DNA of 41,591 nucleotides from Polyangia bacterium (lineage in GTDB: Bacteria; Myxococcota_A; Polyangia; Polyangiales; Sandaracinaceae): assembly GCA_030426845.1 (NCBI GenBank), contig JAUHXR010000043.1, positions 1 through 41,591 of the forward strand. Direction: 5' to 3'. Both the position numbers and the translations under genes were made by a program. Below the pieces are notes generated by a model. The model did not search any database. It saw only the letters and a program-made list of their open reading frames with translations, and was not told the origin of the DNA. How positions within the stretch are numbered: position 1 is the stretch's first letter; the number at the start of each line of letters is the position of its first letter. Below, piece by piece: positions 10,543-38,681 of this stretch.

Positions 10543-12006
10543 TCAGCCCTCCGACGGGCCCGCCTGGTCCTCGGAGACGAGCGGCGAGAAGAAGTTGTCT
10601 TTCTTCGTGTACTCGTCGACGCGGAAGGCGAACTTGTAGCTCGGCGCCGCGCGCTGGTTGCAGTCGGTGCGCTCGCAGAACCGGCAGGTCGTGCCCACCG
10701 GGACGCTCATCTTGACCGGATCGACGAACGGCATGTCGTCGGCGTAGGCGAGGTGCTTGGCCGCGTCGGCGTGGGTCCCGAGGCCGATCGCGTAGACCGT
10801 CCCGCGCGCGAGCGAGCCGCTCACCGGCTCGGACTGGACGCGGGCGAAGCAGAAGTAGCGCGAGCCGTCCGGGAACACGCTGTACTGCCGGTGGATCTCG
10901 TGCGGCGTGAGGAACGCGCCGTGCACCGCCCACTTGGGGCACGAGCCGGTGCCGTGGGGGAAGTTGAGCCCGGTCGCGCTGTAGCGCTTGGAGATGTTCC
11001 CCGCGACGTCGACCCGCAGGAAGTGGAACGGCACGCCGCGGCGCTCCGGGTCGCCGAGGTTGCAGAGCCGGTGCGCGACCGTCTCGTAGCTGGACGCGAA
11101 GATCGACACCAGCCGATCCACGTCGTAGCGGGTCCGCGTGGCGTGGGCGTAGAACGGACCGTAGGGCAGCAGCAGGGCGCCCGCGAAGTAGTTCGCCAGG
11201 TGGATCTTCAGGAGCCCCGGCGCCTCCGAGTGGCGCGGCTCGCGGCCGCCGACCACCTCGCGCTGGAGGCCCTCGCGATCGAGCAGGCAGAGCCCGACGG
11301 TGTGCGCGAGCTGGAACTTGCGGCGGTGCTCGGGCACGTCGACGGAGAGCTGGAGCCGGCCGCGGCTCGGGTCGAAGCGCCGGATCACGCTCGTGCGCCC
11401 GCCCTCCACCAGCTCGACCTCGACCCCGAGGTGCTCCCGGAGCGCGCGCACCAGGCGGCCGCTCGTCGGGTGCTCCCCGAGGCCCGCCTCGTCGCGGAAC
11501 GCGTCCGCCCGCGCCTCGAGCGTCGGGAAGTAGTTGCCGCGCGACTCGAGGAAGTCGGTGACCTCGTCGAACGGGCTGTAGTCGAAGCCGATCGCGCCCG
11601 CCTGCTGCGCGTCGTCCCGCTCGCGCCGCGCGAGGTCGGCCCGGAGGTGATCGAGCTGATGCCGGGTGTTCTTGTAGAGGTTGAAGAGCGCGGTGATCGT
11701 GGTGGCCACCCGCGGCTCGCTCGAGAGCGACGCGAGGTCGTCGCGGCTCAGGTTGAGCGTCCTGAGGAGCGGCTCGTCGAGGAGGCGCGCGAGGCCCTCC
11801 TCGACCCGCGGCTCCCCGAGGCTCGTCATGAACTCCTCCATGCCGACCCCGAACAGCTCGAGGGCCTTGAACAGCAGCGGGAGCTGGACCGAGCGCTTCC
11901 CCTTCTCGATCAAGCTCAGGTACGCGGGCGAGACCCCGAGGCGGCGCGCCACCTCGGCCTGCTGCAGGCCCTGATCGAGCCGCAGCTCGCGCAGGCGCCG
12001 GCCCAT
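10543..12006 (-). CDS. XRE-family ScfR/RamB-type regulator with IrrE/DUF955-like and C-terminal Cys-cluster domains
   Basis: A 487-aa protein if started at ATG 12006. The helix-turn-helix lies at the N-terminus (LQQAEVARRLGVSPAYLSLIEKGKRSV). A middle IrrE/DUF955-like domain contains RKFQLAHTVGLCLLD, so the HExxH zinc-protease motif is absent, as is usual in the short-chain-acyl-CoA-responsive subfamily. The C-terminal DUF2083-like region ends with CRFCERTDCNQRAAP, a likely metal-binding Cys cluster. Relatives (RamB, PrpR-like) sense acyl-CoA or propionate/acetate metabolites. A GTG at 12027 is a possible longer start; the open frame to 12180 would overlap sodB and is unlikely. It is divergent from sodB. 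Confidence 0.85.
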   Translation of the reverse strand: MGRRLRELRLDQGLQQAEVARRLGVSPAYLSLIEKGKRSVQLPLLFKALELFGVGMEEFMTSLGEPRVEEGLARLLDEPLLRTLNLSRDDLASLSSEPRVATTITALFNLYKNTRHQLDHLRADLARRERDDAQQAGAIGFDYSPFDEVTDFLESRGNYFPTLEARADAFRDEAGLGEHPTSGRLVRALREHLGVEVELVEGGRTSVIRRFDPSRGRLQLSVDVPEHRRKFQLAHTVGLCLLDREGLQREVVGGREPRHSEAPGLLKIHLANYFAGALLLPYGPFYAHATRTRYDVDRLVSIFASSYETVAHRLCNLGDPERRGVPFHFLRVDVAGNISKRYSATGLNFPHGTGSCPKWAVHGAFLTPHEIHRQYSVFPDGSRYFCFARVQSEPVSGSLARGTVYAIGLGTHADAAKHLAYADDMPFVDPVKMSVPVGTTCRFCERTDCNQRAAPSYKFAFRVDEYTKKDNFFSPLVSEDQAGPSEG

Positions 12007-12033
12007 CTGCTCGTGCGGGTCCGCCACGAGGGA

Positions 12034-12062
12034 GGCGTAGGCCGCCGCGCGCGCGACGACAA
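12034..12062 (-). promoter_or_regulatory. Possible promoter for the ScfR-type regulator
   Basis: On the minus strand, TTGTCG (12057-12062) and TACGCC (12034-12039) are separated by 17 bp. The -10 match is weak. The predicted transcript would start near 12027, favouring ATG 12006 as the start codon. Confidence 0.25.
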
Positions 12063-12073
12063 GCAAGCCGTCC

Positions 12074-12102
12074 TTTACGCCCGACGAGCAGGGCCCTAGA
12101 GT
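12074..12102 (+). promoter_or_regulatory. Predicted sigma-70-type promoter of sodB
   Basis: TTTACG (12074-12079) and TAGAGT (12097-12102) are separated by exactly 17 bp and each match 4 of 6 consensus bases. The expected transcript start near 12109 leaves a ~65-nt leader before the sodB ATG. Confidence 0.5.
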
Positions 12103-12173
12103 GCGAGCCCCGCCGGGGAGGAGGCGAGCCCTCGCGTCCCCGGAGACCTCGAAAACGGACCCAGGAGACGACG

Positions 12174-12749
<576 letters not shown>

Positions 12750-14578: not shown

Positions 14579-17500
14579 ATGTCCACCACCTCGCCCCGCT
14601 CGAGCGAGAACGCGATCCCCGAGGGCCCCTCCGCCGGCGGCTCGGCCGAGGCGCGCATCGCGACCCTCCGGGCCGAGGTGGAGGCGAGCGCGGACCGGTC
14701 GCGCCAGGCGCTGATCCTCTACGAGATCGGCCACCTGATGCAGTTCGGCCTCGGCAACGAGGCCCAGGCGGTGCGCGAGTACCTGAGCGCGTACAACCTC
14801 GATCCGAGCTTCCGGCTGCCGCTCATCGCGCTCGTGCAGATCTTCGAGCGCCGCCGCTCCACCAAGAACCTCACGCGGCTCTACGAGGCGGAGGCGCGCA
14901 GCGCGACGACCCCGCGCGAGGCCGCCTCGGCGATGACCGATCGCGGCCTCCTGATGGGCGACCTTGGCGACGCGGACGGCGCGATCGAGGTGATCCGGGA
15001 CGCGTTCTCCCAGGCGGCGGAGGCGGCGGACATCGCGCTGATCCTCGAGCACGAGCTGCTCGGGCGGGGCGAGGAGGCCGAGGCGATGGAGATCGCCGAG
15101 GCCCGCGCCGACCTCGTGACCGACCCGGTCCTCGCGACCCTGCTCCGCCTCGAGGTCGCGCGCAGCAAGCACGCGGCGGGGGACGTCGACGGAGCCCTCG
15201 CGACGCTGCGCCAGGCGGTGGGCACGAGCGCGGCGCGCTGGCGGATCCTCAGCGAGCTCGAGCGCGTCGCGCGCTCCGACGACCGCTGGCCCGAGCTGGT
15301 CGTCGCCCTCGAGGGGCGGGCGAAGCTCGCGGCGATGGAGGCGCGCGGCGAGGAGCACGGCCAGCACAGCGGCGCCTTCTCGGTGCAGCGCTTCGCGAGC
15401 CAGGAGCGCGCGGCGGGGATCGCGGCCGCGCTCTACGCGGAGGCCGGGCGCCTGCGGATGACCCGCCTCGGCGACCCCGCGAGCGCGCGCGGCGACTTCG
15501 CGTCGGCCCTCGCGCTTCGGCCCGACGACGCCGCGCTCCAGTTCGAGCGGATGCTCGCGTGCGAGCTGGCTGGGGACCTCGACGGCGCGGCCGACCAGGC
15601 GCGCGTGCTGCTCGAGGGCGTGTCGGGGCCCGACGCGGCCGCGCTGCGCTTCCGCCTGGCCGAGCGCGCGCTGGGCGACGGAGACACCGACGCCGCCCTC
15701 GACGCGCTCCGCGCGGCCCGCGCCGACGACCCGGGCTCGGCCGTGATCGCCGCGACCTACGACGACCTCGTGCGAGGGGTCGGCGACGTGGCCGCGGCGG
15801 TGAAGGCGCTCGCGGCCGCGAGCGGTGAGCCGGCGGCGCGCGCCCAGCGGCTGTGGGAGGCGGCGACCCTCGCGGCGCGCGAGCTCAACGACGCCGAGGG
15901 CGCGCGGGTGCTCTTCACCCAGGCCGCGGAGGCGGCCGAGGACGCGACACCGATCCTCCGCGAGGCCTTCGCGGTGGCCCTGTCGCTCGGCGACGCGGAC
16001 GGGGCCCGGGCCCACGGCGACGCGCTCCTCGCGCGCGACCTCGAGGACGCGGAGCGGAGCGCGCTGCTGCGCGACCTCTACGAGCTCAACCAGGTGATCC
16101 TGGAGGACCGCGACGCGGCGGCGAGCATCCTCGAGCAGGCGCTCGCCTCGCCCGCCGCGAGCTGGGCCGGCGACACCGCGCGGCTCCGCGGCGCGCTCGA
16201 CGGCAACGACGCCCTCCTCGCCAAGGCGCACGAGGCCCTCGCGGCGCGGGCGATGGACGCGGAGACGGCCGCGGCGCACCTCTGCGCCGCCGCGCGCGCG
16301 AAGACCCGCGGGGGCGACGACGAGGGCGCGGTCGAGACGCTCCGCGCGGCGCTGGCGAAGTCGCCCACCCACCCCTACGCGGTCGCGCTCCTCGAGGAGG
16401 TGCTCCGCGCCCGCGGCGACGCCGAGCAGGTCGTGCGCCTGCTGCGCGAGGCGGCGGAGAAGGCCGACGCTCCGCGCGCGGCCGAGACCCAGCTCCTGCT
16501 CGCCGGCGCGGCCGCGGAGGCGGCCGACGATCACGAGCGCGCCGTGCAGGCCTACGACGAGGCCGCGTCGCGCGACCCGACGTCGCTCGCGCCGATGCTC
16601 GCGCTGCGCCGCCTCGCCGAGAACAAGAACGACCGCGCGCTGCTCCTGCGCGCGCTCGAGGGGCTCAGCGAGCGTGAGCGGAGCGCGTCCGAGCCGGGTC
16701 GGCACACGCTCGCGCTCGGCGAGCACCTCGATCTGTTCGACGGCAAGCCCGCCGAGGCGGAGCGCGCGCTGCGGCTGGCGCTCGGCGCCGAGAGCACCGC
16801 GCTCCACGCGGCGGTCGACCTCGCGCTCCTCCCGATCGGCGGCGACGCCCACGCCCGCCTCGATGGCCTCGAGCGGATGCTCGGCCACGCGAGCGAGGAG
16901 GCCCGGCCGGGGATCCTGCGCGAGGCGGCCGGAGCCGCGCTCCGCGAGGGCGACGTGGACGCCGCGAGCCGCCTGCTGAACGAGCTGACCAAGCGCGCGC
17001 CTCACGATCGCTGGGCGCCCCTCGGGTGGCTCCGCCTCGGCGCGCTGCGGCGCGCCGCTCCGAGACCGGTCGAAGGTGCCGAGGGCGCGGGTGAGCCCGA
17101 CCCGGCGGAGGGCGACGACGCGACCGCTCTGCTGCGCGCCGAGCGCGCCGAGGCCTGGATGAGCCTCGGCCGCGCGACCGACGACGCCGAGGTCTCGGCC
17201 GAGCTGCTGTTGCAGGGCCTGCGCGCCCAGGTCTTCGGGCTCGGCGAGGACGCGAGCGACGACGCGGTGCTCGTGGCGCACGACATCCTCGCGACCGCTC
17301 CCGAGTCGATCGCGGGCGCGATCGCGATGGACGAGTCGCTGCGCGCGGGCGACGACCCCGACGGCCGCGCCGACGCGCTCGGCTCGATCCTCGAGCACGC
17401 CTTCCCGAGCGGCGACGGCCCGGGGCGGCTCGGGCTCGAGGCCGCGCGGGGCCGGGCGCTGGCCGCGGCCGGCCGCTCGCGCGAGGCGCTCGAGGTGCTC

Positions 17501-19429
17501 CTGCGGGTCGCCGTCACCGACCCGGACGATCTGGCGAGCTGGGAGGCGATCCGCGTCTGCGCCCGCGACTGCGACGCCTGGGAGCCGCTCGTCGAAGCCT
17601 GCGACCGCCTCGCCCACCTCCTCGACGACGACGAGCTCGTGATGCTGCTCCTCGAGGAGTCCGCCGCGACGCTCATGGACGAGCTCAAGCAGGACGACCG
17701 CGCCGAGCGACGCCTGCGCCGTGTCCTCGCGATCGACGCGCGCCGCCCGATCGCCTACGGCCGCCTCCACGACCTGCTCGCCGAGCGCGAGGACGACGAG
17801 GGTCTGCTCGAGCTGGTGAGCAACCGCATCGAGCTCGTCGACAGCCCCGAGGAGCTGACCGGCCTCTTCTACGAGCAAGCTCGTTTGCTCCGCTCGCTCA
17901 GCCTGCGCGAGGAGGCCCTCGGCTCGCTCGACAACCTCCTCATGCTCGACGGGGATCACCTCGGCGGCCTCGCGCTGCTCGTCGAGCTGCAGGTCCAGCT
18001 CGAGAACTGGGGCGGGGCGGTCGAGGCGCTCCGCAGCCTCGCCGGCGCGGCGGACGTGCCCGGGACCCAGCAGCGCATCGCGCGGCTCGGCGCCGCCGAC
18101 TTCCTCCAGAACAAGCTCGGCGACCTCGAGGGCGCGCTCGGCGAGCTGACCGCGCTGCACGAGGCGGGGCTCGCCGACCTCGAGATCTACGAGCGCGCGG
18201 CGACCGTCGCGGTGGAGCTCGAGCAGGCGCCGGTCGCGGCCGAGATGCTCGCGCGCGCGGTCGAGCTCGCGCCGTCGCCGTCGGCGGTCGCGACCCTCGA
18301 GCGGCGGGCCGGGCGCATCCTCGCGGAGGCGGGCATGCGCGAGGCTGCGACCCAGGCCTACGAGCGCGCGCTCGCGGCCGCGCCGACCGACCTCGCGGCC
18401 GGCCAGGCGCTCGCCCGTCTGCTCGACGCTGGCCCTCGCGAGGCGATGAGCCGGCGCTTCGAGACGGCCGCGCGCCGCGTCCTGGACGCCGATCCCACGG
18501 ACTCGGCGGCCCTGCGGCTCGTCTTGGCGGCCGCGGAGTGGCGCGCGGACGAGGGGCTGCGCCAGGCGGTGCTCGACGTGCTCTCGGCGCTCGGCGAGGG
18601 GACGGACGAGGAGCTGGCCGCGATCACCCCGCGCGCGTCGACCCCGCGCGGCGTGCTCGACGACACGGGCCTCGCGCGCGTCCGCTACGGCCTCGCGCCG
18701 GGGCCGGTGATGGAGCTCGCGGGCCTGGTCGCCGAGTCAGCGGCCGAGATGGACGGCCTCACCCCATCGGGCTTCGGGCTCGGCCGCGGCGATCAGGTCG
18801 CCGACTCGCCGCTCAAGGCGGAGCTCTCGGCGATCTGCCAGGCCTTCGGGCTGCCCGCGCCGGACGTGTTCGTCGGCGGGCCGGCGGAGCACCTCCTCGA
18901 CATCGCGCCGTACCACAAGGACCGCGTCACGATGGTCGCGGGGACCGCGGTGGTCCCGCCGCTCAACCCCGATCAGCGCTTCACCGTCGGCCTCCTCGCC
19001 TACGCGGCGCGCCTCGGGCTCGCCCCCTTCGTTCGCCGCGGACCCGGCGGCGCGGCGACGGTCCTCTTCGCGGCCGCTGCGGCGGCGGAGGTCCCGCTCC
19101 CCCTCGGTGAGGGCCGCGCCGGCATGGCCGAGGGCACCCGCCGCATCTACAAGGCGATGCCGCGCCGCGTGCGCAAGGCGATCCCGCCGGTCGTGGCCGC
19201 GATCGGCGGCGACGGCCGCGACCTCATCGCGTGGGGCCAGCAGCTCCACCACTCCGCGAGCCGCGCGGGCCTCCTGATCGCCAACGACTTCGCGACCGGC
19301 CTGCGGCGCGCGATCGGGACCACCGACCCGGAGGTGGTCGCGGCAACGCCCGAGGCGATCGACATCTTGCTTTTCTGGTTGTCCCCCGAGGTCATCGACC
19401 TCCGGCGGAGGTTGGGGTTGAGCGCGTGA
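14579..19429 (+). CDS. Giant TPR-repeat protein with a degenerate M48-like C-terminal domain
   Basis: A 1616-aa, Ala/Glu/Asp/Leu-rich protein. Residues ~30-1360 are continuous TPR/solenoid helices, for example ALILYEIGHLMQFGLGNEAQ and AVQAYDEAASRDPTSLAPML. Residues ~1375-1616 form a separate domain (VMELAGLVAESAAEM ... LSAICQAFGLPAPDVFVGG ... RFTVGLLAYAARLG ... LLFWLSPEVIDLRRRL). This domain recurs at the end of the next gene product and resembles an M48-type peptidase without HExxH. No signal peptide or membrane segment is visible. The ATG at 14579 was chosen because the upstream GTG (14516) falls inside the presumed -10 element. Its TGA overlaps the next GTG (GTGA). It is probably a scaffold; function is unknown. 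Confidence 0.85.
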   Translation: MSTTSPRSSENAIPEGPSAGGSAEARIATLRAEVEASADRSRQALILYEIGHLMQFGLGNEAQAVREYLSAYNLDPSFRLPLIALVQIFERRRSTKNLTRLYEAEARSATTPREAASAMTDRGLLMGDLGDADGAIEVIRDAFSQAAEAADIALILEHELLGRGEEAEAMEIAEARADLVTDPVLATLLRLEVARSKHAAGDVDGALATLRQAVGTSAARWRILSELERVARSDDRWPELVVALEGRAKLAAMEARGEEHGQHSGAFSVQRFASQERAAGIAAALYAEAGRLRMTRLGDPASARGDFASALALRPDDAALQFERMLACELAGDLDGAADQARVLLEGVSGPDAAALRFRLAERALGDGDTDAALDALRAARADDPGSAVIAATYDDLVRGVGDVAAAVKALAAASGEPAARAQRLWEAATLAARELNDAEGARVLFTQAAEAAEDATPILREAFAVALSLGDADGARAHGDALLARDLEDAERSALLRDLYELNQVILEDRDAAASILEQALASPAASWAGDTARLRGALDGNDALLAKAHEALAARAMDAETAAAHLCAAARAKTRGGDDEGAVETLRAALAKSPTHPYAVALLEEVLRARGDAEQVVRLLREAAEKADAPRAAETQLLLAGAAAEAADDHERAVQAYDEAASRDPTSLAPMLALRRLAENKNDRALLLRALEGLSERERSASEPGRHTLALGEHLDLFDGKPAEAERALRLALGAESTALHAAVDLALLPIGGDAHARLDGLERMLGHASEEARPGILREAAGAALREGDVDAASRLLNELTKRAPHDRWAPLGWLRLGALRRAAPRPVEGAEGAGEPDPAEGDDATALLRAERAEAWMSLGRATDDAEVSAELLLQGLRAQVFGLGEDASDDAVLVAHDILATAPESIAGAIAMDESLRAGDDPDGRADALGSILEHAFPSGDGPGRLGLEAARGRALAAAGRSREALEVLLRVAVTDPDDLASWEAIRVCARDCDAWEPLVEACDRLAHLLDDDELVMLLLEESAATLMDELKQDDRAERRLRRVLAIDARRPIAYGRLHDLLAEREDDEGLLELVSNRIELVDSPEELTGLFYEQARLLRSLSLREEALGSLDNLLMLDGDHLGGLALLVELQVQLENWGGAVEALRSLAGAADVPGTQQRIARLGAADFLQNKLGDLEGALGELTALHEAGLADLEIYERAATVAVELEQAPVAAEMLARAVELAPSPSAVATLERRAGRILAEAGMREAATQAYERALAAAPTDLAAGQALARLLDAGPREAMSRRFETAARRVLDADPTDSAALRLVLAAAEWRADEGLRQAVLDVLSALGEGTDEELAAITPRASTPRGVLDDTGLARVRYGLAPGPVMELAGLVAESAAEMDGLTPSGFGLGRGDQVADSPLKAELSAICQAFGLPAPDVFVGGPAEHLLDIAPYHKDRVTMVAGTAVVPPLNPDQRFTVGLLAYAARLGLAPFVRRGPGGAATVLFAAAAAAEVPLPLGEGRAGMAEGTRRIYKAMPRRVRKAIPPVVAAIGGDGRDLIAWGQQLHHSASRAGLLIANDFATGLRRAIGTTDPEVVAATPEAIDILLFWLSPEVIDLRRRLGLSA

Positions 19430-22400
19430 GCGGCGAAGACGACGACAAGCCGTCGCAGGAGGTCGAGTTCGATCTCGATGACCTCGGGTGGGACGACGCC
19501 CTCGCGGAGCTCGAGGACGAGCTCGACGACGCGGAGAAGGGCGACGCGCACCTGTCCGAGGCGCGCCCGCTCTACCGGCCGCCCTCCCCCGACGACCGCT
19601 TCGCGCAGCGGCCCCCGAGCCCCCCGCGCGCGGCCCCGAAGCCGCCGCCTCCCCGCCGCGAGCCGCGGCGCGCGCCGAGCCTCGACGACCTGCCGACCTT
19701 CGACATGGTCGACGACGACGACTCCTTCGCGTCCACCAAGATCGCCGAGATCCCGCAGGAGCTGATCAACTCGCTCGTGAAGGACCCGGAGCGCGCGCGC
19801 TCGACGCGCCCCCCGCCGCTCCCCGACGAGCGCGCCGGCGCGGAGCTGCCCGCCGACGGCCCGCCCTCCGTGGACCTCGACCTCGACGGCCTGCTGGACG
19901 GGCTCGACGACGAGACCGCCCTCTACCCCGCGGCGAGCGCGCCCGCGCCGGCGCCCGGTCGGCTCGCCGGCTCCGACGCGGAGGCCACGTTCTTCGGTGC
20001 GCGCCCGCCCTCCGGCGTGGGCCCGGCCATCCGCTCGTCGCGGCCGCCCGCGCCGCCGCCCGCGGTCGACGGCGGCCCGATCGACGAGGACGTGTTCGAC
20101 CCGTTCGGCGAGGACGACGCCGACGAGCCCACGCGGATCGCGGCCGAGGCCTTCGACGACGCGCCGGACGACGCGGACCAGCCCACACGGATCGCGGCCG
20201 AGGCCTTCGACGACGCCGACGAGCCGACGCGAGTCGCGGCCGAGGCCTTCGACGACGCGCTTGATGGCTCGGCCGCGACCGCGCCGAGCCCGACCTCGAC
20301 CGCTCCGGTGGTCGAGGAGCCCACGCGCATGATCACCGCGCCGAGCCTCGCCGAGCTGACGTCGGATCCGGAGGCGTCGCGCCCGCCGTCGGAGAAGCCG
20401 CCGGCGGCCGAGGAGCCGACCCGGATGATCCCCGCCCCGAGCCTCGCCGAGCTGGCCGGCGAGACGGCGGTGCGCGACGAGCCCGCCGAGCCGACGGCAG
20501 GGCCCGAGGCGGCAGAGTCCGACGCGGCAGAGCCCGGGGCGGCAGAGCCCGGGGCGGCAGAGCCCAGGGCGGCACAGCCCGAAGCGGCACAGCCCGGGGC
20601 GGCAGAGCCCAGGGCGGCAGAGCCCGAAGCGGCACAGCCCGAGCCGACGAGCGAGGAGCGAGCTCTGGCCATCCCGCGGCCGTCGATCCCGAAGCCGGGC
20701 GCGCCCCGGCCGTCGATCCCCCGGCCGTCGATCCCGCGCCCCGGCGCGCTAGGCCGGAGCCCGATCGCGGGGACGCGGCCCAAGCTGCCGCCTATCCCCA
20801 AGCCGGGCGGACGGCCGAGCATCCCGCGGCCCAACATCCCGCCGCCCGCGCGGCCCTCGAGCCCTGGCGCGCCGCAGGGCTCGGCGTCGAGCGAGGAGGA
20901 GCGCGGGAGCCTGCCGGGCCTGCCCGCCCGCCCGAAGAAGACGTTCCCTCCGCGGCCGACCGGTGAGGCGCGCGCCCCCGAGACCGACGCGGCGACGGAC
21001 GCGGTGGCTCCGGCGGCGATGCCTCTCGACGCGATGCCTCTCGACGCGATGCCTCTCGACGCGATGCCTCTCGACGCGACGCCGCTCGACGAGATGCCGG
21101 CCGAGGCGTCGATCGAGGCGTCGGTCGACGCCCCGCCTGGGCCGGCCGAGACGGCTGCCGAGACGCCGATGGAGGCCGCAAGCCCCGTGGACGCCGGTCC
21201 GCACGAGGGCCGGCTCCCCAAGCGGACGCTCATGGGGACAGGGCCGGCGGCCGAGCCCGCGCCGGAGGCGGTCAGCGACGCGGTCACGCTCGACGTGATG
21301 GATCCGCTGGCCGAGCTGACGCCGTCGGCGGAGCTCCAGCTCGAACGGACGACGCCGGGCGAGCAGGCCCAGGCGCCCGCGGCGCCGTCGGTCGACGACG
21401 ACCTCGACGCGCTGCTGAGCGCGGACCGCGCGCGCGACGCGGAGAGCGCCTCCGAGGAGCTCGAGATCTCCGTCTCCGACGCCGAGCCGCTCGACGCGCC
21501 GCGCGCGGGGGACGACGCGACCGCGGCGGACGACGGCGAGGAGGCCGTCTCGAGCGACGACGCGCCGAACGCGAACGACCTGGCGCCCGGCGATCTCATT
21601 GAGCGCGCAGACGACGACGCGCCGGCCCTCGTCGCGGCCCAGCCCGACGACGACGACGACGTCGAGCTGGCGATCGGCGAGGATGACGAGGACGACCTCT
21701 CGATCGAGGCGGCGGCCGAGGTCGACCTCGCGGTCGGCGACGACGACTGGGACGACGAGGACTGGGCCGCGATCGAGGCGGCCGAGGCAGAGGCCGACGC
21801 GGCCGCAGCCGCCGCGGCGGCGGCCGACGCGGCGAGCGCGCCCGCGGCCAACGACCGAGGCGCGGTCGCGGCCCGCCGAACGGTCCGCTCGCGCAAGCCG
21901 CGCGACGAGCGCTTCCCGCTGATCGGCGACGGCCCCGAGGCCCTCCGGCTGCGCCTGCGGCTGCTCAAGTCGCTGGCCGAGAACCGCCAGGGCCAGGTCC
22001 GCGCGCGGCTCCTCGTCGGCGCGGCCGAGCTGGCCGAGCAGACCGGTGACGCCGACGAGGCGCGCGAGCTCTACGTGCAGGCGCTCGCTTCGGACCCGAC
22101 CGACCTGGTGGCCTTGCGCGCGCTGCGGCGCGACGCGGTGGCGCGCGGCGAGTGGTCCAAGCTCGCGACCCTCTACGAGCGCGAGGCCAAGCTCGAGCTG
22201 GGGCCCGACGCGCGCGCGACCGCGTGGACCGCGCTGGCCGAGCTCCACCTCGGCCGGCTCGACGATCCGACGGCGGCCGAGGCCGCGGCCCTGGCCGCGC
22301 TCGAAGCGCAGCCGTCGTCCGTCACCGCCGCGCTCCTCCTCGCGGAGGCGCGCTGGCGACGCGGCGAGGACGCCCGCGCGGTGGAGCCCTTCGAGGAGTC

Positions 22401-25400
22401 CCGCGAGCTGTGGGACGATCCCGACGCCCGCGCCGCGCTCGCGGTCGAGGAGGCGCGAGTCGCTGAGGCGGCCGGTGACGAGGGTCGGGCGCGCGCGCTC
22501 TACACCTGGGCGAACGACGTCGACCCCGAGGCGCTCGACGCCTGGTTCGGCCGGGCCCGCACTTCGTCGCGTCCGGGCGCCGACCCCGACGGGGCGATCG
22601 AGGCCCTCGCCACGGTGGCCGCCTACTGCGGCGGCCCGCTCGGCGAGGCGATCCTCACCCGCGCGAGCCGGGTCGCGACCCGCATCAAGAAGGACCCCCA
22701 GCTCGGCGTGCGCCTCCTCGGTGACGCGACCGGGGTGCTCCCGCTCCAGGCCCGCGCCGACGCCGCGGTCGCGAGCGGCGACCCGGCGCTCGAGCTCGCC
22801 TGCCTCGCCGCCTGGGCGGGGGCGGCCGGCGGGACGGATCGCGCGCTCGCGCTGGTGCGCACCGCCGAGACGAAGGCCGGCCAGGGCGACCTCGACGGGG
22901 CCGAGGCCGCGCTGCGCGACGCGGCGCGCGCCGACGGAAGCCTCGGCACGATCCGCGTCGTCCGCGAGGTGATCGCGCGGCGCAGCGGCGACATGAGCCG
23001 GCTGGCCGACGCGGTCGACGGCGGCGGCGCCCTCGCGGCGGCGGCCCGGGTGGCGCGCGATCCTGCGGCGCTCGAGCGTGAGCACGAGCTGCTCCTCGAG
23101 GCGGTGGCCGAGGGGACCGCGCTCGTCACCGCCGACGTCCTCGGCCTCGACGTCTCGGCGGCTCAGGCCGACGAGTCGGGCATCACCGACGCGCTGCGCC
23201 GCCAGGCCGATCGCGTGCCGCCCGAGCAGCGCACCGGCTCGCTCCTCGCGCTCACCGATCGCGCGATCGAGCGCGACGAGCTCGACCGGGCCGAGGCGCT
23301 CCTGGACGAGGCGCGCAAGCTCGCGCCGGGCGAGCCGCTCGCGCTCCGCCCGCTGGGCCGCCTCGCGCTCCGCCACGGAGCCGAGGCGGCGGCGGCCCAC
23401 TGGCTCGAGGAGGCGGCGGCGAGCCAGGGCGCCCGCGCCGCGTTCGCGACGACCCAGGCCGGCCACCTCCTCGCGGCGGGCGGCGGCGACGCGCTCGGGA
23501 CCTACCGCAAGGCCCTCGACGCGGTGCCCGGCTACCGGCCCGCGGCCTGGGCGCTGCGCCCCATCGCGATGGAGCTCGGCGACCCGCTGACCCTCGGCGA
23601 GGTCTACGAGCAGCTCGCGGACACCGCGGCCGATCCCCGCGACGCGGCCGCGAGCCTGGTGCGGGGGGCGCTCCTGCGCGCGGAGGCCGACCCCGCGGGC
23701 GCGGCCGCGCTCCTCGAGCGCGCGCACGAGCACACCCCGGGCGACATGGTGATCGCGAGCCTGCGGATGCGCCTCGCGTCGGAGAGCGACGCGGCGGGGC
23801 GCGCGAAGCTCCTCACCGAGGCCTCCGGCCGCGCGAGCGCGCCGCTGAGCCGCGTCTACCGGCTCCAGGCCGCCCAGGCCTACCTCGACGCCGACGACCC
23901 GGCGAGCGCGGCGCGCGAGTACGCGGCGCAGCTCGAGGCCACCCCGGACGACCCGCTGGTCCCCGAGCCGCTCGACCGCGCCCAGCTCGCCGCCGATCAG
24001 GTCGCGCGGGTCGCCGAGCGCCGCTTCGCGGCGGTCAAGGCGGCTTCCACCGACGAAGAGCGGACGCTCGCGCTCGAGCGCCTCGCCGAGCTCGACCTGC
24101 TCTACCGCGCCGACCCCGCCTCCGCGGTCCTCTCGCTCGAGGCGATCCTCGAGCACGCGCCCGGGCACCTCCCGAGCCTCCGCGCGCTGCACCGCTACTA
24201 CGCGAGCCAGGGCCGCGGCGAGGACGCGGCCCGGGTCGTCGCCGCCCACGCCTCCCAGCTCGAGCCGGGCTCGGACGTGACCGCCTACCTGCGCCTCGCG
24301 CGGCGGCTGATGCTCACGGGCGAGGAGGCGACCCCGGAGGCGTCCGACGCCCTGCTGGTCGCCTGCGCGGAGCGGGCGGACATGGACCTCTGGCTCGCCC
24401 CGCGCATCCTCGCGGCCGCGCTCGAGGCCGGCGAGCCCGAGATCGCTCGGCACGCGGCCCGCGCGCTCGCCAACCTGCTCGGCTCGGCCGAGGAGCGGGC
24501 GGCGTCCCGGATGCGCGCCTCCGAGCTGCTCGCCCCGGTCGACGAGGACGGCGCGCTCGACCTGCTCCGCGAGGCGGTCCACGCCTCGCCGTCGCACCCG
24601 CTCGCGGCGGCGGCCCTCGGCGAGGCCTGCGAGGCGCGCGGCGAGCTGGCCGAGGCGGCGGAGGCCTACGAGAAGGCGGGCGCCGGCTCCGAGGTCGCGG
24701 GCCGCGCGGCGGCGCTCTACTACCGCGCCGCCCAGATCTGGCAGGACCACGTCGGCGACGAGGGCCGCGCGCGCGAAGCCCTCACCCGCGCGAGCGAGCA
24801 GGACGTCACCTTCAAGGACGTCTTCGAGCGCCTCCGCATCATCCTGGAGGACGCCGACGACAAGGCCGCCCTCGCCGAGCTCTACCAGCACCGCCTCTCG
24901 GCCGGCGGGGACGATCCGACCCTCGTCGAGCTCTACATCAAGCAAGCCGAGCTGCGGAGCGCGATCTCCGACCTCTCCGGCGCGAAGGCCGCGCTCCGGG
25001 CCGCGCTCGCGCTCCAGCCCGAGCGCATCGACGCCCTCCGCTCGCTCGCCAACCTCTCGCTCGAGGACGAGGACTGGCGTGGCGCGGCCGAGGTCCTCAT
25101 CCGCATCGCGCGCATCCGCAAGGAGCGCGAGGAGCTGCGCTGGGTCTTCTTCACGCTGGGCGACATCTACGACCAGCACATGCCCGACCCGCGGCGCGCC
25201 GAGGCGGCGTTCCGGCGCGTGCTGAAGCTCTTCCCCAACGACCTGCCCGCGATGGAGCGCCTGGCCGAGCTCTACCGGCGCCAGAACCAGCTCCCCGAGG
25301 CGGCCAAGGTCCTCGAGGAGCTCGCGGGCCGCGAGGTCGACCTCGAGGCGAGCCGCGACCACCGCCTGCGCCTGAGCGAGATCCACGAGCAGCTCGGCGA

Positions 25401-26547
25401 CGCGCGGCGGGCCGAGGCGGTGCTCGAGGAGGCGCGCAAGGCCGCCCCGACCGACCTCCAGGTCGTCCGCGCGCTCGCGGAGTTCTACCGCCGCCAGGAC
25501 GCGGCCAACGCGATGGCGATGCACCTGCGTCGCGCGGTGAACGACTTCCGCCACGTGCTCGAGGCCGATCTCGCCGACGCCGCGGCGTGGCCGGGCCTCG
25601 TCGAGGTGCTGCGCTGGCAGGGCAAGCCCGACGCGGCCGCGGCCGCGGCCTCCGCCGCCCAGGCGGTGGGCATCGTCGACATCGAGCTCTCAAAGCTCGT
25701 GGACGCGCGTGGGGCGGCGCCCGGCGCGGGGATGGGCGCGGCCTCGGACGCCCTCGACGAGCTGCTCGCGCCCAAGGAGCTCGGCGCGCCGGCGCGCGCG
25801 GTGTTCAAGCTCGTGGGCGAGGCGCTCGAGAAGACGCTGCCCTTCGACGTCAACGCGTACCGCGCCGAGCGCCTCGACAGCCGCGACACCCGCATCCGCC
25901 CGATCGCGCTCGAGGTCGCGCGCTGGTTCCGCATCTCGCCGCTCGAGCTCTACGTCACGAGCGCGGCCCCGCGCGTCTGCGTCCCCGTCTCGAGCAGCCC
26001 GTGCACGCTCCTCATCGGGAGCGAGCTGCTCGGGATCACCGACGACCGTGAGAAGATGTTCGTCCTCGCGCGCGCCCTGAAGATCGCCCAGGCCCAGCTC
26101 TCGGTGGTCGCCGGATCACAAAAACAGGAGGTCGTCGCGCTCCTCGGCGGGCTCGTGCAGAGCTACGACCCGCACCACCAGCCGGTGGGCGCCGACCCCT
26201 CGCACGTCGCGGAGGCGGCGCGCCGGGTCAGCCGCAACCTCAGCCGGCGCGACGCCGAGCAGCTCGAGCCCCTCGTCTTCGAGATGGCCGGGCGCCCCGG
26301 CTACGACCCCGGGCAGCTCGCGATGGCCGCCTCGGAGTGGGGCAACCGCTGCGCCCTCGTGGCGTCCGGCTCCGCCCCGGCCGCGGTCAGCGCGCTCGCC
26401 AAGCTCAGCGGCGAGCGTGATCTGCCGGCCGAGCCCGCCGCCCGCATGGCGTTCCTCGAGCGCTTCGCCGAGGCGTCCTCCCTGCTCACCTTCGCCCTTT
26501 CCGACGCGCACTTCGAGGCCCGCGAGCGCGCCGGCACCGAGGGGTAG
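19426..26547 (+). CDS. Giant protein: long acidic disordered N-terminus, TPR solenoid, degenerate M48-like C-terminal domain
   Basis: A 2373-aa protein started at a GTG overlapping the preceding stop by 4 bp. Residues 1-~815 are disordered, acidic and Pro/Ala-rich: EFDLDDLGWDDALAELEDEL near the start, five EPTR-type motifs (~233-330), an AAEPG-type array (~365-405), PxPSIPRP repeats and a MPLDA array. Residues ~830-2100 are TPR-like helices (ELYVQALASDPTDLVALRAL). Residues ~2110-2373 match the C-terminal domain of the preceding gene product (VARWFRISPLELYVTSAAP ... CTLLIGSELLGITDDREKMF ... LARALKIAQAQLSVVA). The two proteins are thus partial paralogues. The stop is 2 bp before the next GTG. 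It is likely a cytoplasmic scaffold; the role is not known. Confidence 0.85.
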   Translation: MSGEDDDKPSQEVEFDLDDLGWDDALAELEDELDDAEKGDAHLSEARPLYRPPSPDDRFAQRPPSPPRAAPKPPPPRREPRRAPSLDDLPTFDMVDDDDSFASTKIAEIPQELINSLVKDPERARSTRPPPLPDERAGAELPADGPPSVDLDLDGLLDGLDDETALYPAASAPAPAPGRLAGSDAEATFFGARPPSGVGPAIRSSRPPAPPPAVDGGPIDEDVFDPFGEDDADEPTRIAAEAFDDAPDDADQPTRIAAEAFDDADEPTRVAAEAFDDALDGSAATAPSPTSTAPVVEEPTRMITAPSLAELTSDPEASRPPSEKPPAAEEPTRMIPAPSLAELAGETAVRDEPAEPTAGPEAAESDAAEPGAAEPGAAEPRAAQPEAAQPGAAEPRAAEPEAAQPEPTSEERALAIPRPSIPKPGAPRPSIPRPSIPRPGALGRSPIAGTRPKLPPIPKPGGRPSIPRPNIPPPARPSSPGAPQGSASSEEERGSLPGLPARPKKTFPPRPTGEARAPETDAATDAVAPAAMPLDAMPLDAMPLDAMPLDATPLDEMPAEASIEASVDAPPGPAETAAETPMEAASPVDAGPHEGRLPKRTLMGTGPAAEPAPEAVSDAVTLDVMDPLAELTPSAELQLERTTPGEQAQAPAAPSVDDDLDALLSADRARDAESASEELEISVSDAEPLDAPRAGDDATAADDGEEAVSSDDAPNANDLAPGDLIERADDDAPALVAAQPDDDDDVELAIGEDDEDDLSIEAAAEVDLAVGDDDWDDEDWAAIEAAEAEADAAAAAAAAADAASAPAANDRGAVAARRTVRSRKPRDERFPLIGDGPEALRLRLRLLKSLAENRQGQVRARLLVGAAELAEQTGDADEARELYVQALASDPTDLVALRALRRDAVARGEWSKLATLYEREAKLELGPDARATAWTALAELHLGRLDDPTAAEAAALAALEAQPSSVTAALLLAEARWRRGEDARAVEPFEESRELWDDPDARAALAVEEARVAEAAGDEGRARALYTWANDVDPEALDAWFGRARTSSRPGADPDGAIEALATVAAYCGGPLGEAILTRASRVATRIKKDPQLGVRLLGDATGVLPLQARADAAVASGDPALELACLAAWAGAAGGTDRALALVRTAETKAGQGDLDGAEAALRDAARADGSLGTIRVVREVIARRSGDMSRLADAVDGGGALAAAARVARDPAALEREHELLLEAVAEGTALVTADVLGLDVSAAQADESGITDALRRQADRVPPEQRTGSLLALTDRAIERDELDRAEALLDEARKLAPGEPLALRPLGRLALRHGAEAAAAHWLEEAAASQGARAAFATTQAGHLLAAGGGDALGTYRKALDAVPGYRPAAWALRPIAMELGDPLTLGEVYEQLADTAADPRDAAASLVRGALLRAEADPAGAAALLERAHEHTPGDMVIASLRMRLASESDAAGRAKLLTEASGRASAPLSRVYRLQAAQAYLDADDPASAAREYAAQLEATPDDPLVPEPLDRAQLAADQVARVAERRFAAVKAASTDEERTLALERLAELDLLYRADPASAVLSLEAILEHAPGHLPSLRALHRYYASQGRGEDAARVVAAHASQLEPGSDVTAYLRLARRLMLTGEEATPEASDALLVACAERADMDLWLAPRILAAALEAGEPEIARHAARALANLLGSAEERAASRMRASELLAPVDEDGALDLLREAVHASPSHPLAAAALGEACEARGELAEAAEAYEKAGAGSEVAGRAAALYYRAAQIWQDHVGDEGRAREALTRASEQDVTFKDVFERLRIILEDADDKAALAELYQHRLSAGGDDPTLVELYIKQAELRSAISDLSGAKAALRAALALQPERIDALRSLANLSLEDEDWRGAAEVLIRIARIRKEREELRWVFFTLGDIYDQHMPDPRRAEAAFRRVLKLFPNDLPAMERLAELYRRQNQLPEAAKVLEELAGREVDLEASRDHRLRLSEIHEQLGDARRAEAVLEEARKAAPTDLQVVRALAEFYRRQDAANAMAMHLRRAVNDFRHVLEADLADAAAWPGLVEVLRWQGKPDAAAAAASAAQAVGIVDIELSKLVDARGAAPGAGMGAASDALDELLAPKELGAPARAVFKLVGEALEKTLPFDVNAYRAERLDSRDTRIRPIALEVARWFRISPLELYVTSAAPRVCVPVSSSPCTLLIGSELLGITDDREKMFVLARALKIAQAQLSVVAGSQKQEVVALLGGLVQSYDPHHQPVGADPSHVAEAARRVSRNLSRRDAEQLEPLVFEMAGRPGYDPGQLAMAASEWGNRCALVASGSAPAAVSALAKLSGERDLPAEPAARMAFLERFAEASSLLTFALSDAHFEARERAGTEG
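20118..20259 (+). repeat. Three imperfect repeats encoding (D)EPTR(I/V)AAEAFDDA
   Basis: Three consecutive in-frame copies of a 39- to 51-bp unit encode DEPTRIAAEAFDDA, DQPTRIAAEAFDDA and DEPTRVAAEAFDDA. Two further EEPTRM-x-x-APSLAEL copies follow near 20317 and 20410. Confidence 0.85.
20506..20643 (+). repeat. 15-bp tandem repeat encoding AAEPG/AAQPE pentapeptides, about 9 copies
   Basis: Variants of GCGGCAGAGCCCGGG repeat in frame from ~20506 to 20643 and encode Ala-Ala-(Glu/Gln)-Pro-x. Copies differ in the third and last codons (GAG/CAG and GGG/AGG/GAA), which suggests repeated unequal exchange. Confidence 0.9.
21016..21090 (+). repeat. 15-bp tandem repeat encoding AMPLD, 5 copies
   Basis: GCGATGCCTCTCGAC is repeated identically four times (21016-21075), then a variant fifth copy (21076-21090). 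It encodes the MPLDA array in the disordered N-terminal half of the 2373-aa protein. Confidence 0.9.
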
Positions 26548-26549: not shown

Positions 26550-27158
26550 GTGCGGATCGGCCTGCTCGGTCCGACCGGCGCCGACGCCACGATCGTGCGC
26601 GAGGCGGTGGAGTTCCTGCTGCGCGACGTCGAGGTCGACCACGCGATCTACCTCGGGGAGGACCCCGCGCCGCTCGACGCGATCCTGCGCGCGTGGACGG
26701 ACGAGATGTTCGAGGGCCAGGCACCCGAGGACGCGTTCCTCGACGAGGCCTGCGCGCTCGCGGAGTTTGGCGAGCCCTCGGCCATCGACGCGCTCCTCGC
26801 GCGCGACGCGCTCGCCCGGCGGCTGGCCCGCGTCCGCGTGCTGCCCCCCACCCCGGCGCGCGCGATCGAGATGATCGGTGACCGCATCATCCTCGCCGTC
26901 CACGACAAGCGCGTGCTCGACGAGGAGGACATCGCCAACGCGAACCTCATCGTCTACGGCCGCAGCGACAAGGCAGACCTGCGCAAGTTCGGCCCGCGCT
27001 ACTTCCTCACCCCGGGCCCGCTCTCCGAGGGGCGCGTCGCGGTGGTCGAGGTCGAGGGGGACGGCCACATCTCCATCGCGCTCTTCGAGACCTCAGGGCT
27101 GCCCGTCTGGCGCAAGACGATGACCCGGCGCAGCACCAAGATGAACGTGGCGCAGTGA
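26550..27158 (+). CDS. Degenerate calcineurin-like (YfcE-type) phosphoesterase
   Basis: A 202-aa protein with a GTG start, GAGGGG just upstream inside the previous gene, and a 2-bp gap. The order of blocks resembles small YfcE/MJ0936-like metallophosphoesterases. RIGLLGPTGAD sits where SDTHGD should be, HAIYLGEDPA where the hydrophobic-hGD motif should be, RIILAVHDKR where the HG motif should be, NLIVYGRSDKADL where the GHTH motif should be, and YFLTPGPLSEGRVAVVEVEG where NPGS and the final beta strands should be. Nearly all metal-binding Asp/His/Asn residues are missing, so catalysis looks unlikely. It may bind a ligand or a protein within the giant-TPR complex. The family assignment is inference from motif order. 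Confidence 0.65.
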   Translation: MRIGLLGPTGADATIVREAVEFLLRDVEVDHAIYLGEDPAPLDAILRAWTDEMFEGQAPEDAFLDEACALAEFGEPSAIDALLARDALARRLARVRVLPPTPARAIEMIGDRIILAVHDKRVLDEEDIANANLIVYGRSDKADLRKFGPRYFLTPGPLSEGRVAVVEVEGDGHISIALFETSGLPVWRKTMTRRSTKMNVAQ

Positions 27159-27174: not shown

Positions 27175-27732
27175 GTGGAGGTGACCCGCGTCGGCGTCTT
27201 CGGCGGCAGCTTCAACCCGCCGCACTTCGGGCACGTCCTCGCCGCGTGCTGGGTGATGGGGACGGGGCGGGTCGATCGCCTCCTCGTCATCCCGACCCTG
27301 TCGCACCCGTTCGCGAAGGCGCTCGCACCCTACCCGCACCGGCGACGGATGGCCGAGCTCGCCTTCGCGGGCGTCGAGGGTGTCGCGGTGAGCGACCTCG
27401 AGGCCCGGATGGGGGGCCCGAGCTACACCGTGGACACGCTCGAGCGCCTCCGGCGCGAGCTGCCGGGGGTGGAGCTGCACCTCGTGATCGGGACCGATCT
27501 CGTCTCGCAGATCCCGAGCTGGCACGAGGGCCACCGGATCGAGGAGCTCGCGCGCCTGCTCGTCGTGGGCCGCGGCGGCCACGCGCAGGGCGAGGAGGAC
27601 ATCGTGATGCCGGCCATCAGCTCGACCGAAGTCCGCCGACGCCTCGCGGCGGGCGAGCCAGCGACGTCGATCGTGCCGAAGCGGGTGCTGGACTACGTGG
27701 GGGCGCACGGGCTCTACCGGGGCGAGCCGTGA
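27175..27732 (+). CDS. nadD: Nicotinate-nucleotide adenylyltransferase
   Basis: A 185-aa nucleotidyltransferase that joins ATP and nicotinate mononucleotide to deamido-NAD in NAD biosynthesis. The N-terminal GGSFNPPHFGH carries the (H/T)xGH nucleotidyl-transfer motif, and ISSTEVRRRL near residue 150 is the second signature. Other family blocks are SYTVDTLERL and the IGTDL substrate loop. The GTG at 27175 has AGGA about 12 nt upstream; a second GTG at 27181 is possible. It follows the phosphoesterase-like gene by 16 bp. In many bacteria nadD sits near proBA, obgE or rsfS, which are not seen here. Its stop overlaps the next start. Confidence 0.95.
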   Translation: MEVTRVGVFGGSFNPPHFGHVLAACWVMGTGRVDRLLVIPTLSHPFAKALAPYPHRRRMAELAFAGVEGVAVSDLEARMGGPSYTVDTLERLRRELPGVELHLVIGTDLVSQIPSWHEGHRIEELARLLVVGRGGHAQGEEDIVMPAISSTEVRRRLAAGEPATSIVPKRVLDYVGAHGLYRGEP

Positions 27733-28544
27733 GCGTCGCAATCGTCGGCCGGGGCCGCGTCGGGCGAGGGCTGACGCGGGCGCTCTCCCGCGCAGGCGAG
27801 GAGGCGCGCCTCACGTCCGGCCGCGCGCCGAGGCCGCGCGCGCTCCGCGGCGCCTCGGCCGTGGTCGTCGCCACCCCCGACCCGTTCATCGCCGCGACCG
27901 CCGCGAAGGTCCGCGCGCTCGCGCCGCGCGCGCCGCTCCTGCACTGCTCCGGGAGCCTCGGCCCGGAGGCCTGCGGCGTCGACGGCCCCCACGGGGTCAT
28001 GCACCCGCTCGCGTCCTTCGCCGATCCCGCCCGGCCGCCCGCCCTCGCGGGCGTCGCCTTCGTCATCGCGGGCGACCGAGTCGCGGCGCGCGAGGCCAGC
28101 CGCATCGCGCGCGCGCTCGGCGCCCGGCCGCTCGTCCGCGCGGTCCACGGCGCCGGCTACCACGCCGCGGCCGCGCTCAGCGCCAACGGCGCGGCCGCCC
28201 TCGCCACGATCGCCGTGCGGGTCCTCGAGGCGAAGGGGCTGGCGCGCCGCGAGGCCGAGCGCGCGGTGGGAGCGCTCCTTCGGACGGTGGGCGAGAACGT
28301 CGAGCGCGTCGGCGTGCCGCGCGCGCTGAGCGGCCCGGTGATGCGCGGCAACGCCGACGTCGTCGCGCGCCACCAGGCCGCCCTCGCCCTCCTCGACCCG
28401 TCGGCCCGCGAGGCCTACGACGCGATCGCTCCGGCGATCCTCGACTGCGCGCGACGCGCGGGCCTCGACGAGGCACGGGCCGACGCGATCGAGGCCCTGC
28501 TCGTCGCCGACGGCGAGCCGGCTCAGGGGACGAGCAGCACGTAG
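27729..28544 (+). CDS. Rossmann-fold DUF2520 domain protein
   Basis: A 271-aa protein with a GTG start overlapping the nadD stop (GTGA). The N-terminal Rossmann motif is SVAIVGRGRVGRGLTRAL (GxGxxG), with the strand AVVVATPDPFI and then the family block LLHCSGSLGPEAC and GVMHPLASFADP. The C-terminal helical half (GYHAAAALSANGAAALATIA ... SGPVMRGNADVVARH) is DUF2520. Relatives look like NAD(P)-dependent 6-phosphogluconate/ketopantoate dehydrogenase-fold enzymes of unproven substrate. Its 3' end overlaps the kinase gene on the other strand by 22 bp. Confidence 0.88.
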   Translation: MSVAIVGRGRVGRGLTRALSRAGEEARLTSGRAPRPRALRGASAVVVATPDPFIAATAAKVRALAPRAPLLHCSGSLGPEACGVDGPHGVMHPLASFADPARPPALAGVAFVIAGDRVAAREASRIARALGARPLVRAVHGAGYHAAAALSANGAAALATIAVRVLEAKGLARREAERAVGALLRTVGENVERVGVPRALSGPVMRGNADVVARHQAALALLDPSAREAYDAIAPAILDCARRAGLDEARADAIEALLVADGEPAQGTSST

Positions 28545-30034
28545 ACCGCGGCCGCGATCGTCGCGAGCATCAGCGCGGCCACCGCGAAGATCCAGATCGG
28601 GACGCGCACCCCGTCGTCCGGCCCCGGGTCGACGGAGGGCAAGCGCTGGGTGTGCTGCGGCTCGACCCGCGCGGGCGGCGCCTCGAACCCGGTCGCGACC
28701 GTCCGGTCGGTCGCCTCCCGCGCGGGCGGCTCGGTCGACGCGGGCTCGGACGACGCGGGCTCGGACGGCGCGGGCTCGGTCGACGCGGGCTCGGACGGCG
28801 CGGGCTCGGACGACGCGGGCTCGGACGAAGATGCACCAGTCGACGGCGCGGGCGACGAGGACTGCGCGAGGGCGAGCTCGGCCAGCGCGACCGCCGGGTT
28901 CTCGTCCGTGACGTCGTCGTCGTACGCCGACTCGGTCGCGGCGACCTCATTCGGCACGTTCGCCGACAGCGGCTCGAGCTGCACCGGCGGCCCCAGCTCG
29001 AGCGCGCGCGCGGCCAGCTCGCGCTCGCGGCGCTGGCGGATGACCTCCATCTCGAAGTGCTCCGAGAGGAACGCGCCGAAGCGAAGCTGCGACGCGACGA
29101 GCCGGTTCTTGAGGGCGTAGTCGTCGAGCGCGTGCAGCATCTCCTCGGCGCTCTCGAAGCGGTCCTCCGGTGCCGGGGCGCAGGCCCGATCGAGGATCGC
29201 CTGGAGGTCGGCGAGCGCGGGCAGGCCCCGGTCCGGCAGCGGCGGGATCTCGGCCGCCCGCGCGAGCGCGAGCATCTCGTCCTCCGTCCCGCGGTAGAGC
29301 CGCCGGCCCGCGCAGAGCTCCCACAGGATGATCCCGGCCACCAGCTGATCGGCGCGCGGCCCGACCTCGCCACCCGACGCCTGCTCCGGTGCCATGTAGG
29401 CCGCCTTGCCGATCACCCGCGGCCGCTCGCCGGTGCCCGCCGCGCCCTCGTCGCTCGCCGAGCCGTAGGCCCGCGCGATCCCGAAGTCGCAGAGCTTCAC
29501 CTCGCCCTCGAAGCTGATGAGCACGTTCGACGGGGACACGTCGCGGTGCACGATCCCGAGCGGTCGGCCCCCGTCGTCCTTCGCGCGGTGGGCGAAGCCG
29601 AGCGCGGCGAGGACCTCGCGCACCACGAAGAGCGCGAAGTCGACGGGGAGAGGGATCTTGCGCCGCGAGAGCTGCCGCAGGAGCTGGTTGAGGTCGAAGC
29701 CCTCGACGTACTCCATCGCGATGAACAGCCGGTCGCCCTCGCGCCCGAGATCGGTCACCTGGGCGATGTTGGCGTGCCGCAGCTCGGCCACCAGCTTCGC
29801 CTCGTCGATGAGCATCCGGGCGAAGCGCTCCCGGCGGCTCAGCTCGGCGAGGATCTGCTTGACCACCACCCGGCGCGCCGCTCCGAGCCCGGTCGACTCG
29901 AGCGCGAGGTAGATGTCCGCCATGCCGCCTCGACCGATCCGGTCGAAGAGCAGGTAGCGCCCAAATCGCCGCGGCAGTCGGTCCGGCAGGCCCCCCGGAG
30001 CCGGCTCCGCGGCCCCGCCGGCCTGCGTCGCCAT
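28523..30034 (-). CDS. Membrane-anchored Ser/Thr protein kinase (Pkn type)
   Basis: A 503-aa Hanks-type kinase. The Gly-rich loop is RIGRGGMADIYLA, the ATP-binding Lys is K59 (RVVVKQI), the catalytic loop is HRDVSPSN with D165, the metal motif is DFG at 183-185, and the activation segment ends MAPEQ. All key residues are present, so it should be active. Residues ~350-475 are a disordered linker with SEPAS/SEPAP repeats and several Thr residues. Residues ~478-500 (PIWIFAVAALMLATIAAAVY) form a C-terminal membrane anchor, so the kinase domain faces the cytoplasm. There is no PASTA or other sensor domain outside. It is 41 bp downstream of the Clp-like gene in the same direction and overlaps the DUF2520 gene tail-to-tail. 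Confidence 0.95.
   Translation of the reverse strand: MATQAGGAAEPAPGGLPDRLPRRFGRYLLFDRIGRGGMADIYLALESTGLGAARRVVVKQILAELSRRERFARMLIDEAKLVAELRHANIAQVTDLGREGDRLFIAMEYVEGFDLNQLLRQLSRRKIPLPVDFALFVVREVLAALGFAHRAKDDGGRPLGIVHRDVSPSNVLISFEGEVKLCDFGIARAYGSASDEGAAGTGERPRVIGKAAYMAPEQASGGEVGPRADQLVAGIILWELCAGRRLYRGTEDEMLALARAAEIPPLPDRGLPALADLQAILDRACAPAPEDRFESAEEMLHALDDYALKNRLVASQLRFGAFLSEHFEMEVIRQRRERELAARALELGPPVQLEPLSANVPNEVAATESAYDDDVTDENPAVALAELALAQSSSPAPSTGASSSEPASSEPAPSEPASTEPAPSEPASSEPASTEPPAREATDRTVATGFEAPPARVEPQHTQRLPSVDPGPDDGVRVPIWIFAVAALMLATIAAAVYVLLVP
28740..28829 (-). repeat. 15-bp tandem repeat encoding SEPA(S/P), 6 copies
   Basis: Plus-strand unit GCGGGCTCGGACGAC with variants GACGGC and GTCGAC, six in-frame copies at 15-bp spacing. 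A seventh, longer copy sits at 28722-28739. It encodes the Ser-Glu-Pro-Ala linker of the kinase. Confidence 0.9.
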
Positions 30035-38660: not shown

Positions 38661-38681
38661 CGCACGATGGACGCCCCGGGG

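Follow-up and report, generated by a model that had tools for sequence, protein, structure and literature searches.

The window, i.e. the whole stretch of 41,591 nucleotides analysed here (contig JAUHXR010000043.1 of a Polyangia bacterium from the Sandaracinaceae), carries two consecutive genes for giant TPR proteins, hereafter gene 1 and gene 2, which are followed by two smaller genes in a conserved run (Table 1). TPR matches were detected by Pfam in both giant products (best E 5e-8 in gene 1 and 1e-13 in gene 2), and no membrane segment was apparent in either of them, the maximal 19-residue Kyte-Doolittle means being 1.5 and 1.4, respectively. Among named genomes, those nearest to that of the window are MAGs of Sandaracinaceae and Sandaracinus (Polyangiales). 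The G+C content of the window is 70-80% over most of its length. Positions 38001-40000 deviate with a value of 0.61 vs ~0.75 elsewhere and a strong GC skew, and this part is possibly foreign or non-coding.

Table 1. Positions of the two giant TPR genes, their domains and the genes following them in the window.
Feature	Positions	Strand	Description
Gene 1	14579-19429	+	ATG start, 1616 aa; TPR protein with C-terminal dead-M48 domain
Gene 1 dead M48 (gluzincin-fold) domain	18725-19426	+	~residues 1383-1616; AlphaFold model pLDDT 95.9, pTM 0.92; HtpX match
Gene 1 HExxH position	18992-19006	+	reads LLAYA
Gene 1 third zinc ligand (Glu) position	19247-19249	+	His; the invariant Arg of RAGLL follows five residues later
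Stop/start overlap of gene 1 and gene 2	19426-19429	+	GTGA serves as gene 1 end and gene 2 start
Gene 2	19426-26547	+	GTG start, 2373 aa; acidic/Pro-rich N-terminal tail, TPR region, dead-M48 C-terminus
Gene 2 low-complexity N-terminal tail	19426-21915	+	~residues 1-830; acidic (Asp/Glu), Pro/Ala-rich, DEPTR/EEPTR repeats
Gene 2 TPR region	21961-25724	+	~residues 846-2100; resembles its counterpart in the GltI-class protein
Gene 2 dead M48 (gluzincin-fold) domain	25801-26544	+	~residues 2126-2373; AlphaFold model pLDDT 95.0, pTM 0.93
Gene 2 HExxH position	26071-26085	+	reads RALKI; in gene 2 orthologues, Arg invariably replaces the first His
Gene 2 third zinc ligand (Glu) position	26332-26334	+	Ser
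Third gene of the conserved run	26550-27158	+	202 aa, probable dead YfcE-type metallophosphoesterase
nadD-like gene, conserved fourth	27175-27732	+	nicotinate-nucleotide adenylyltransferase, named by reading the sequence

The initial annotation had described the two giant TPR proteins as a translationally coupled pair, and the orthologous loci, many of which come from metagenome-assembled genomes, agree well with this description. An overlap of the same kind as in the window, either ATGA or GTGA, was present at the gene 1 stop in most of these loci. The two domains were located on one contig and on the same strand at a distance of 4.4-7.0 kb in 35 of 51 genomes, a count that omits one genome (G024) where both queries match a single locus. 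In several of the genomes outside these 35, the loci are on short contigs.

The N-terminal tail of gene 2 shows two further features. Five PTR repeats stand there in an acidic context (DEPTRIA, DQPTRIA, DEPTRVA and EEPTRMI twice), which are possibly phosphothreonine sites, and EPTR repeats occur in the tail far above chance (4 strict matches vs 0.08 expected). As the repeats are not kept among the gene 2 orthologues, they were left out of the explanation given below. A short acidic-hydrophobic motif near the N-terminus (within 19426-19520), which reads FDLDDLGWDDAL here and SFDFDEDAISTLLDTF or DLDLDDALDAWE in others, is common to the orthologues and might be a docking motif.

Direct comparison of the two C-terminal ends by pairwise BLASTP gave an E-value of only 0.3, and the alignment proposed from the letters alone was therefore beyond the reach of an ordinary pairwise search. 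Orthologues of each domain were gathered from relatives, aligned separately and compared profile vs profile. The two profiles matched end to end over 303 columns (probability 99.6, E 4.8e-24), and those built from a second locus set matched over 318 columns (probability 99.8, E 1.8e-28). Meanwhile, the gene 1 domain profile retrieved gene 2-family domains and vice versa. Hence, the homology between the two domains is real and extends over the whole domain, and the proposal that both proteins share a paralogous C-terminal domain holds. Three of the four segment pairs that the initial annotation had aligned were in register, while the pair starting with RFTVGLL and EKMFVLA was two residues off. 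Some of the E-values given here refer to small sequence sets. Neither domain gave a meaningful match in the copies of the Pfam and NCBIfam libraries searched, and a sequence search of the PDB returned either chance matches or matches to the TPR end of the gene 2 alignment only.

AlphaFold models of both domains were then compared with known structures, each model being built from the sequences of its own domain family only. Foldseek alone returned nothing with E < 0.001, though M48 structures were among its best rows. In VIA-align 2, the first 18 rows for the gene 2 model were all M48, M56 or minigluzincin peptidases, with Z values of 8.8 for BlaR1, 8.7 for both ZMPSTE24 and Ste24p, 8.4 for BepA, 8.2 for the putative Zn peptidase Q74D82, 7.9 for abylysin and 7.5 for selecase. 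The best match of the gene 1 model was HtpX (Z 9.1, 2.8 Å, 87 of 101 residues), followed by Ste24p, BepA, ZMPSTE24 and BlaR1. It should be pointed out that Z values of 8.8-9.1 are modest, slightly above background according to VIA-align's own notes; the consistent peptidase group among the top rows is a stronger point than the Z values themselves. Residues 44-266 of BepA span residues 91-330 of the gene 2 model and residues 77-301 of the gene 1 model, and the two models thus correspond to each other via this common template rather than by direct superposition. Both domains are accordingly predicted to adopt the gluzincin fold, the top PDB rows of both models consisting of M48/M56 peptidases and minigluzincins.

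Two of these structural relatives are informative in terms of architecture. BepA (YfgC), like the window proteins, joins an M48 fold to TPRs (Z 8.4 with gene 2 and 6.0 with gene 1). BepA works in the periplasm as an active peptidase, and its short TPR part follows the peptidase domain, whereas the window proteins have a giant TPR part first and a dead peptidase last. The minigluzincins abylysin, selecase and jannalysin represent the minimal gluzincin core, which superposes on residues 116-298 of the gene 2 model (VIA-align Z 7.0-7.9, 3.0-3.7 Å); these proteins are stand-alone metallopeptidases with HExxH zinc sites.

A link to M48 was also found at the sequence level. Among the authentic HExxH-containing M48s of the same genomes, one subfamily has AEITCDRAGLLxxxDLxAA as its third-ligand motif. 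The pooled window-type domains matched this subfamily in profile-profile comparison at 89.6% (local) and 91.3% (global), with scores of 50.1 and 41.0 vs block-shuffled maxima of 40.1 and 26.1, respectively, and the pooled profile matched a true M48 at 7.8e-4. A third paralogue class (class 3), comprising TPR giants of mostly ~3400-4000 residues, served as a bridge. In hhalign, class 3 matched the AEITCDRAGLL subfamily with a probability of 96.7, an E-value of 4.4e-10 and a score of 75 vs a shuffled maximum of 36, and its profile retrieved ten members of the subfamily by HMMER in a small ORF set, the best at 9e-11. The alignment is collinear through the strand region, the HExxH helix and the third-ligand motif. 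As class 3 also matches the window domains at 99.6-99.8% in profile-profile comparison, the window domains are M48 relatives, and the likeness to M48 peptidases without their active site that the initial annotation had offered as a conjecture is supported by both the models and this bridge. Most class-3 domains keep the third-ligand Glu, which is a remnant of an active ancestor, and it can be argued that the dead domains originated in this specific M48 subfamily. General M48s without the DRAGLL motif matched the family profiles only weakly, no member scanned matched PF01435 over its cut-off, and the window was absent from the PF01435 matches in its own genome. The modest Z-scores and weak Foldseek E-values would suit the idea that the M48 likeness is fortuitous and due to a widespread alpha/beta arrangement, but this idea is scarcely credible, given that the match between class 3 and a single M48 subfamily is collinear and far above the shuffled controls and that the same peptidase group tops the structural rows for both models.

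Active intermediates in apparently long reading frames were considered as well and rejected: the M48 matches there are of the membrane type and have no TPRs. Several relatives encode a large membrane-type M48 with an intact HExxH and a long C-terminal extension (L160, L161 and L162).

As the initial annotation had noted, neither window domain contains HExxH, and the third-ligand Glu (ExxxD) is lost from both as well (Table 1). At this site, HExxH was found in 0 of ~130 family domains, some loci being counted twice. A single HEASH occurs in one domain region (L086), away from the site. The first zinc His has become Arg in 111 of the 132 family domains, the positions of the catalytic Glu and the second His vary freely, and the Arg of RAGLL is kept in all 132. 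Together with the models, these alignments show that each window protein ends in an M48 (gluzincin) fold with all zinc-binding and catalytic residues replaced. The AEITCDRAGLL-subfamily M48s (e.g. L001, L110 and L114) share the order of strand region, HExxH helix and ExxxDRAGLLxxxDLxAA; they keep HExxH and the Glu ligand, whereas the window domains have lost them all and terminate TPR giants. The two conserved arginines, one in place of the first zinc His in most members and the other invariant, might be taken as the centre of a different active site at which the domain keeps some chemical activity. This is very improbable, because the first-His position is Leu in window gene 1, the positions of the catalytic Glu and second His are free to vary, and the invariant Arg is also found in active members of the M48 subfamily and is therefore ancestral.

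Class 3 could be assigned by its gene neighbourhood. In Myxococcus xanthus, gltG, gltH, gltI and gltJ lie together in a single cluster, and GltI/AgmK, a TPR giant, is annotated with 4132 aa and without signal peptide or TM (PMC3169522). According to Luciano et al., those glt genes that are restricted to Myxococcales and Bdellovibrionales, gltI included, are sometimes multi-copy (PMC3169522). In one genome (G001), the gene ahead of the class-3 gene matches the NCBIfam model gliding_GltG over its full length (E 7e-131), with 437.9 bits and thus under the curated cut-off of 650. In the genome from which the window comes, gltG (E 1.3e-131), a gene for a TPR lipoprotein and a 3399-aa class-3 gene stand in a row on another contig (C115). 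The distance from gltG to the class-3 gene downstream on the same strand was at most ~15 kb in 8 of 12 genomes, families outside the order included, and the two genes were on different contigs in the other 4. Based on the gltG synteny and the giant TPR architecture, class 3 was thus identified as GltI/AgmK, and with the class identity so assigned, GltI of the gliding machinery appears to carry the same cap as the window proteins.

The window genes resemble GltI/AgmK (MXAN_4863) in being giant TPR proteins without signal peptide or TM and in having the C-terminal domain of its class, and the TPR region of gene 2 matches that of the GltI class at E 5e-12. They are ancient GltI paralogues. Orthology is not indicated by their position, since they lie beside a hutH-like gene, a phosphoesterase-like gene and nadD instead of gltG. 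They further differ from GltI/AgmK in belonging to separate old lineages, in being shorter and in forming a coupled pair with the phosphoesterase-like gene and nadD.

The domain family is not confined to these three classes. The same domain also ends several other TPR giants of Myxococcota, and the pooled profile found 3-10 matches per genome in ten genomes. Of the 284 Myxococcota genomes sampled, 157 had at least one family domain, as did 113 of the 194 better ones; only the top candidates of each genome were scored in this survey. The neighbourhoods of the other paralogues in G001 showed no common function or theme, and a description of dead M48 domains in TPR giants was not found in the literature searched. 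The domain is multi-copy in many Myxococcota genomes and had no match in the family libraries searched, and its apparent presence in GltI points to a large group of bacterial scaffolds not described before.

A maximum-likelihood tree was built from 100 domains. The orthologues of gene 1, those of gene 2 and GltI each fell on one side of a supported branch (supports 100/90, 99/91 and 100/100, respectively), and midpoint rooting placed gene 2 with GltI and not with gene 1. An origin of the pair by recent tandem duplication was therefore rejected, as the tree puts the genes in two old lineages. As far as the domain sequences can tell, the pair is an old combination of these lineages. The age and separateness of the lineages, the closer relation of gene 2 to GltI than to gene 1 and the many paralogues that occur singly would also be consistent with two products that do not bind each other, the coupling setting only their stoichiometry and each protein capping its own complex. 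We consider this unlikely, however, since both the gene order and the stop/start overlap are conserved throughout the order, which is what co-translational assembly would lead one to expect.

The third gene and nadD follow the pair in most loci that extend far enough. The 202-aa product of the third gene had no Pfam match above cut-off; its family profile matched authentic YfcE-type phosphoesterases at 92.8% (local) and 94.6% (global), with scores of 50.7 and 45.9 vs shuffled maxima of 33.1 and 25.2. The metal motifs of metallophosphoesterases (DxH, GD, GNH[DE] and GHxH) are missing from this protein, which has GPTG for SDTH, LGED for GD and YGRSD for GHxH. Judged by these motifs, it is probably the third dead enzyme of the gene run.

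Other genes of the window were noted in passing. A Ser/Thr protein kinase on the opposite strand (28523-30034) and a ClpA/ClpB-like gene (30076-33645) are found together near the pair in several relatives. A sulfate permease with STAS and a C-terminal cyclic-nucleotide-binding domain is encoded at 34902-38006, and a regulator combining HTH, an IrrE-type M78 domain and ScfRs (short-chain acyl-CoA responsive type) at 10543-12180 on the minus strand. The 1021-aa protein encoded at 3873-6938 had no Pfam match < 0.001; its start recalls a nucleotide cyclase domain in degenerate form, a P-loop-like GPVGAGARE in it lacks the usual Lys, and it is perhaps another dead enzyme.

Could the pair belong specifically to the Agl-Glt machinery, or to an envelope motor parallel to it, working beside GltI at focal adhesions? 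The cap shared with the GltI class, the similarity of its TPR region to that of gene 2, the gltG gene adjoining the GltI-class gene in the same genome and the occasional occurrence of glt genes, gltI included, in several copies (PMC3169522) are in favour of such a role. But the pair is situated away from glt and agl genes, its conserved neighbours being the dead phosphoesterase and nadD, and with several members of the cap family in each genome, a common cap does not imply gliding. A dedicated gliding role is thus rather improbable; the pair may possibly serve gliding, and the neighbourhood lends no support to it.

We instead lean towards the reading that the domain serves a cytoplasmic TPR scaffold as a docking cap without catalytic activity, and that joint production of the two giants leads to their assembly, probably including the dead phosphoesterase. 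The cap would close the TPR superhelix and would retain the sheet-and-helix cleft of the protease type for holding a partner or peptide, while the superhelix itself may bind further partners. Translational coupling would produce the two giants together so that they can assemble, and the phosphoesterase-like protein would probably join this complex. We infer the docking role of the cap from the loss of catalysis combined with conservation. GltI has been reviewed as a large intracellular scaffold through which the Agl motors and GltG are connected with the MreB track (PMC13104615), so a scaffold role is reasonable for its paralogues as well, and the proposed cytoplasmic assembly would resemble GltI in this respect.

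More tentatively, this operon of dead enzymes, with two TPR giants capped by pseudo-M48 domains and a pseudo-metallophosphoesterase, might encode an undescribed cytoplasmic machine of the Polyangiales that is paralogous to GltI, the cap being a general docking module for Myxococcota scaffolds. Three probable dead enzymes in one conserved gene run would be an unusual case of a pseudoenzyme scaffold. Furthermore, the role of GltI/AgmK, a very large part of the gliding motor, is poorly defined, and its apparent dead-peptidase end, shared with many other TPR giants, would give a concrete part for experiments.
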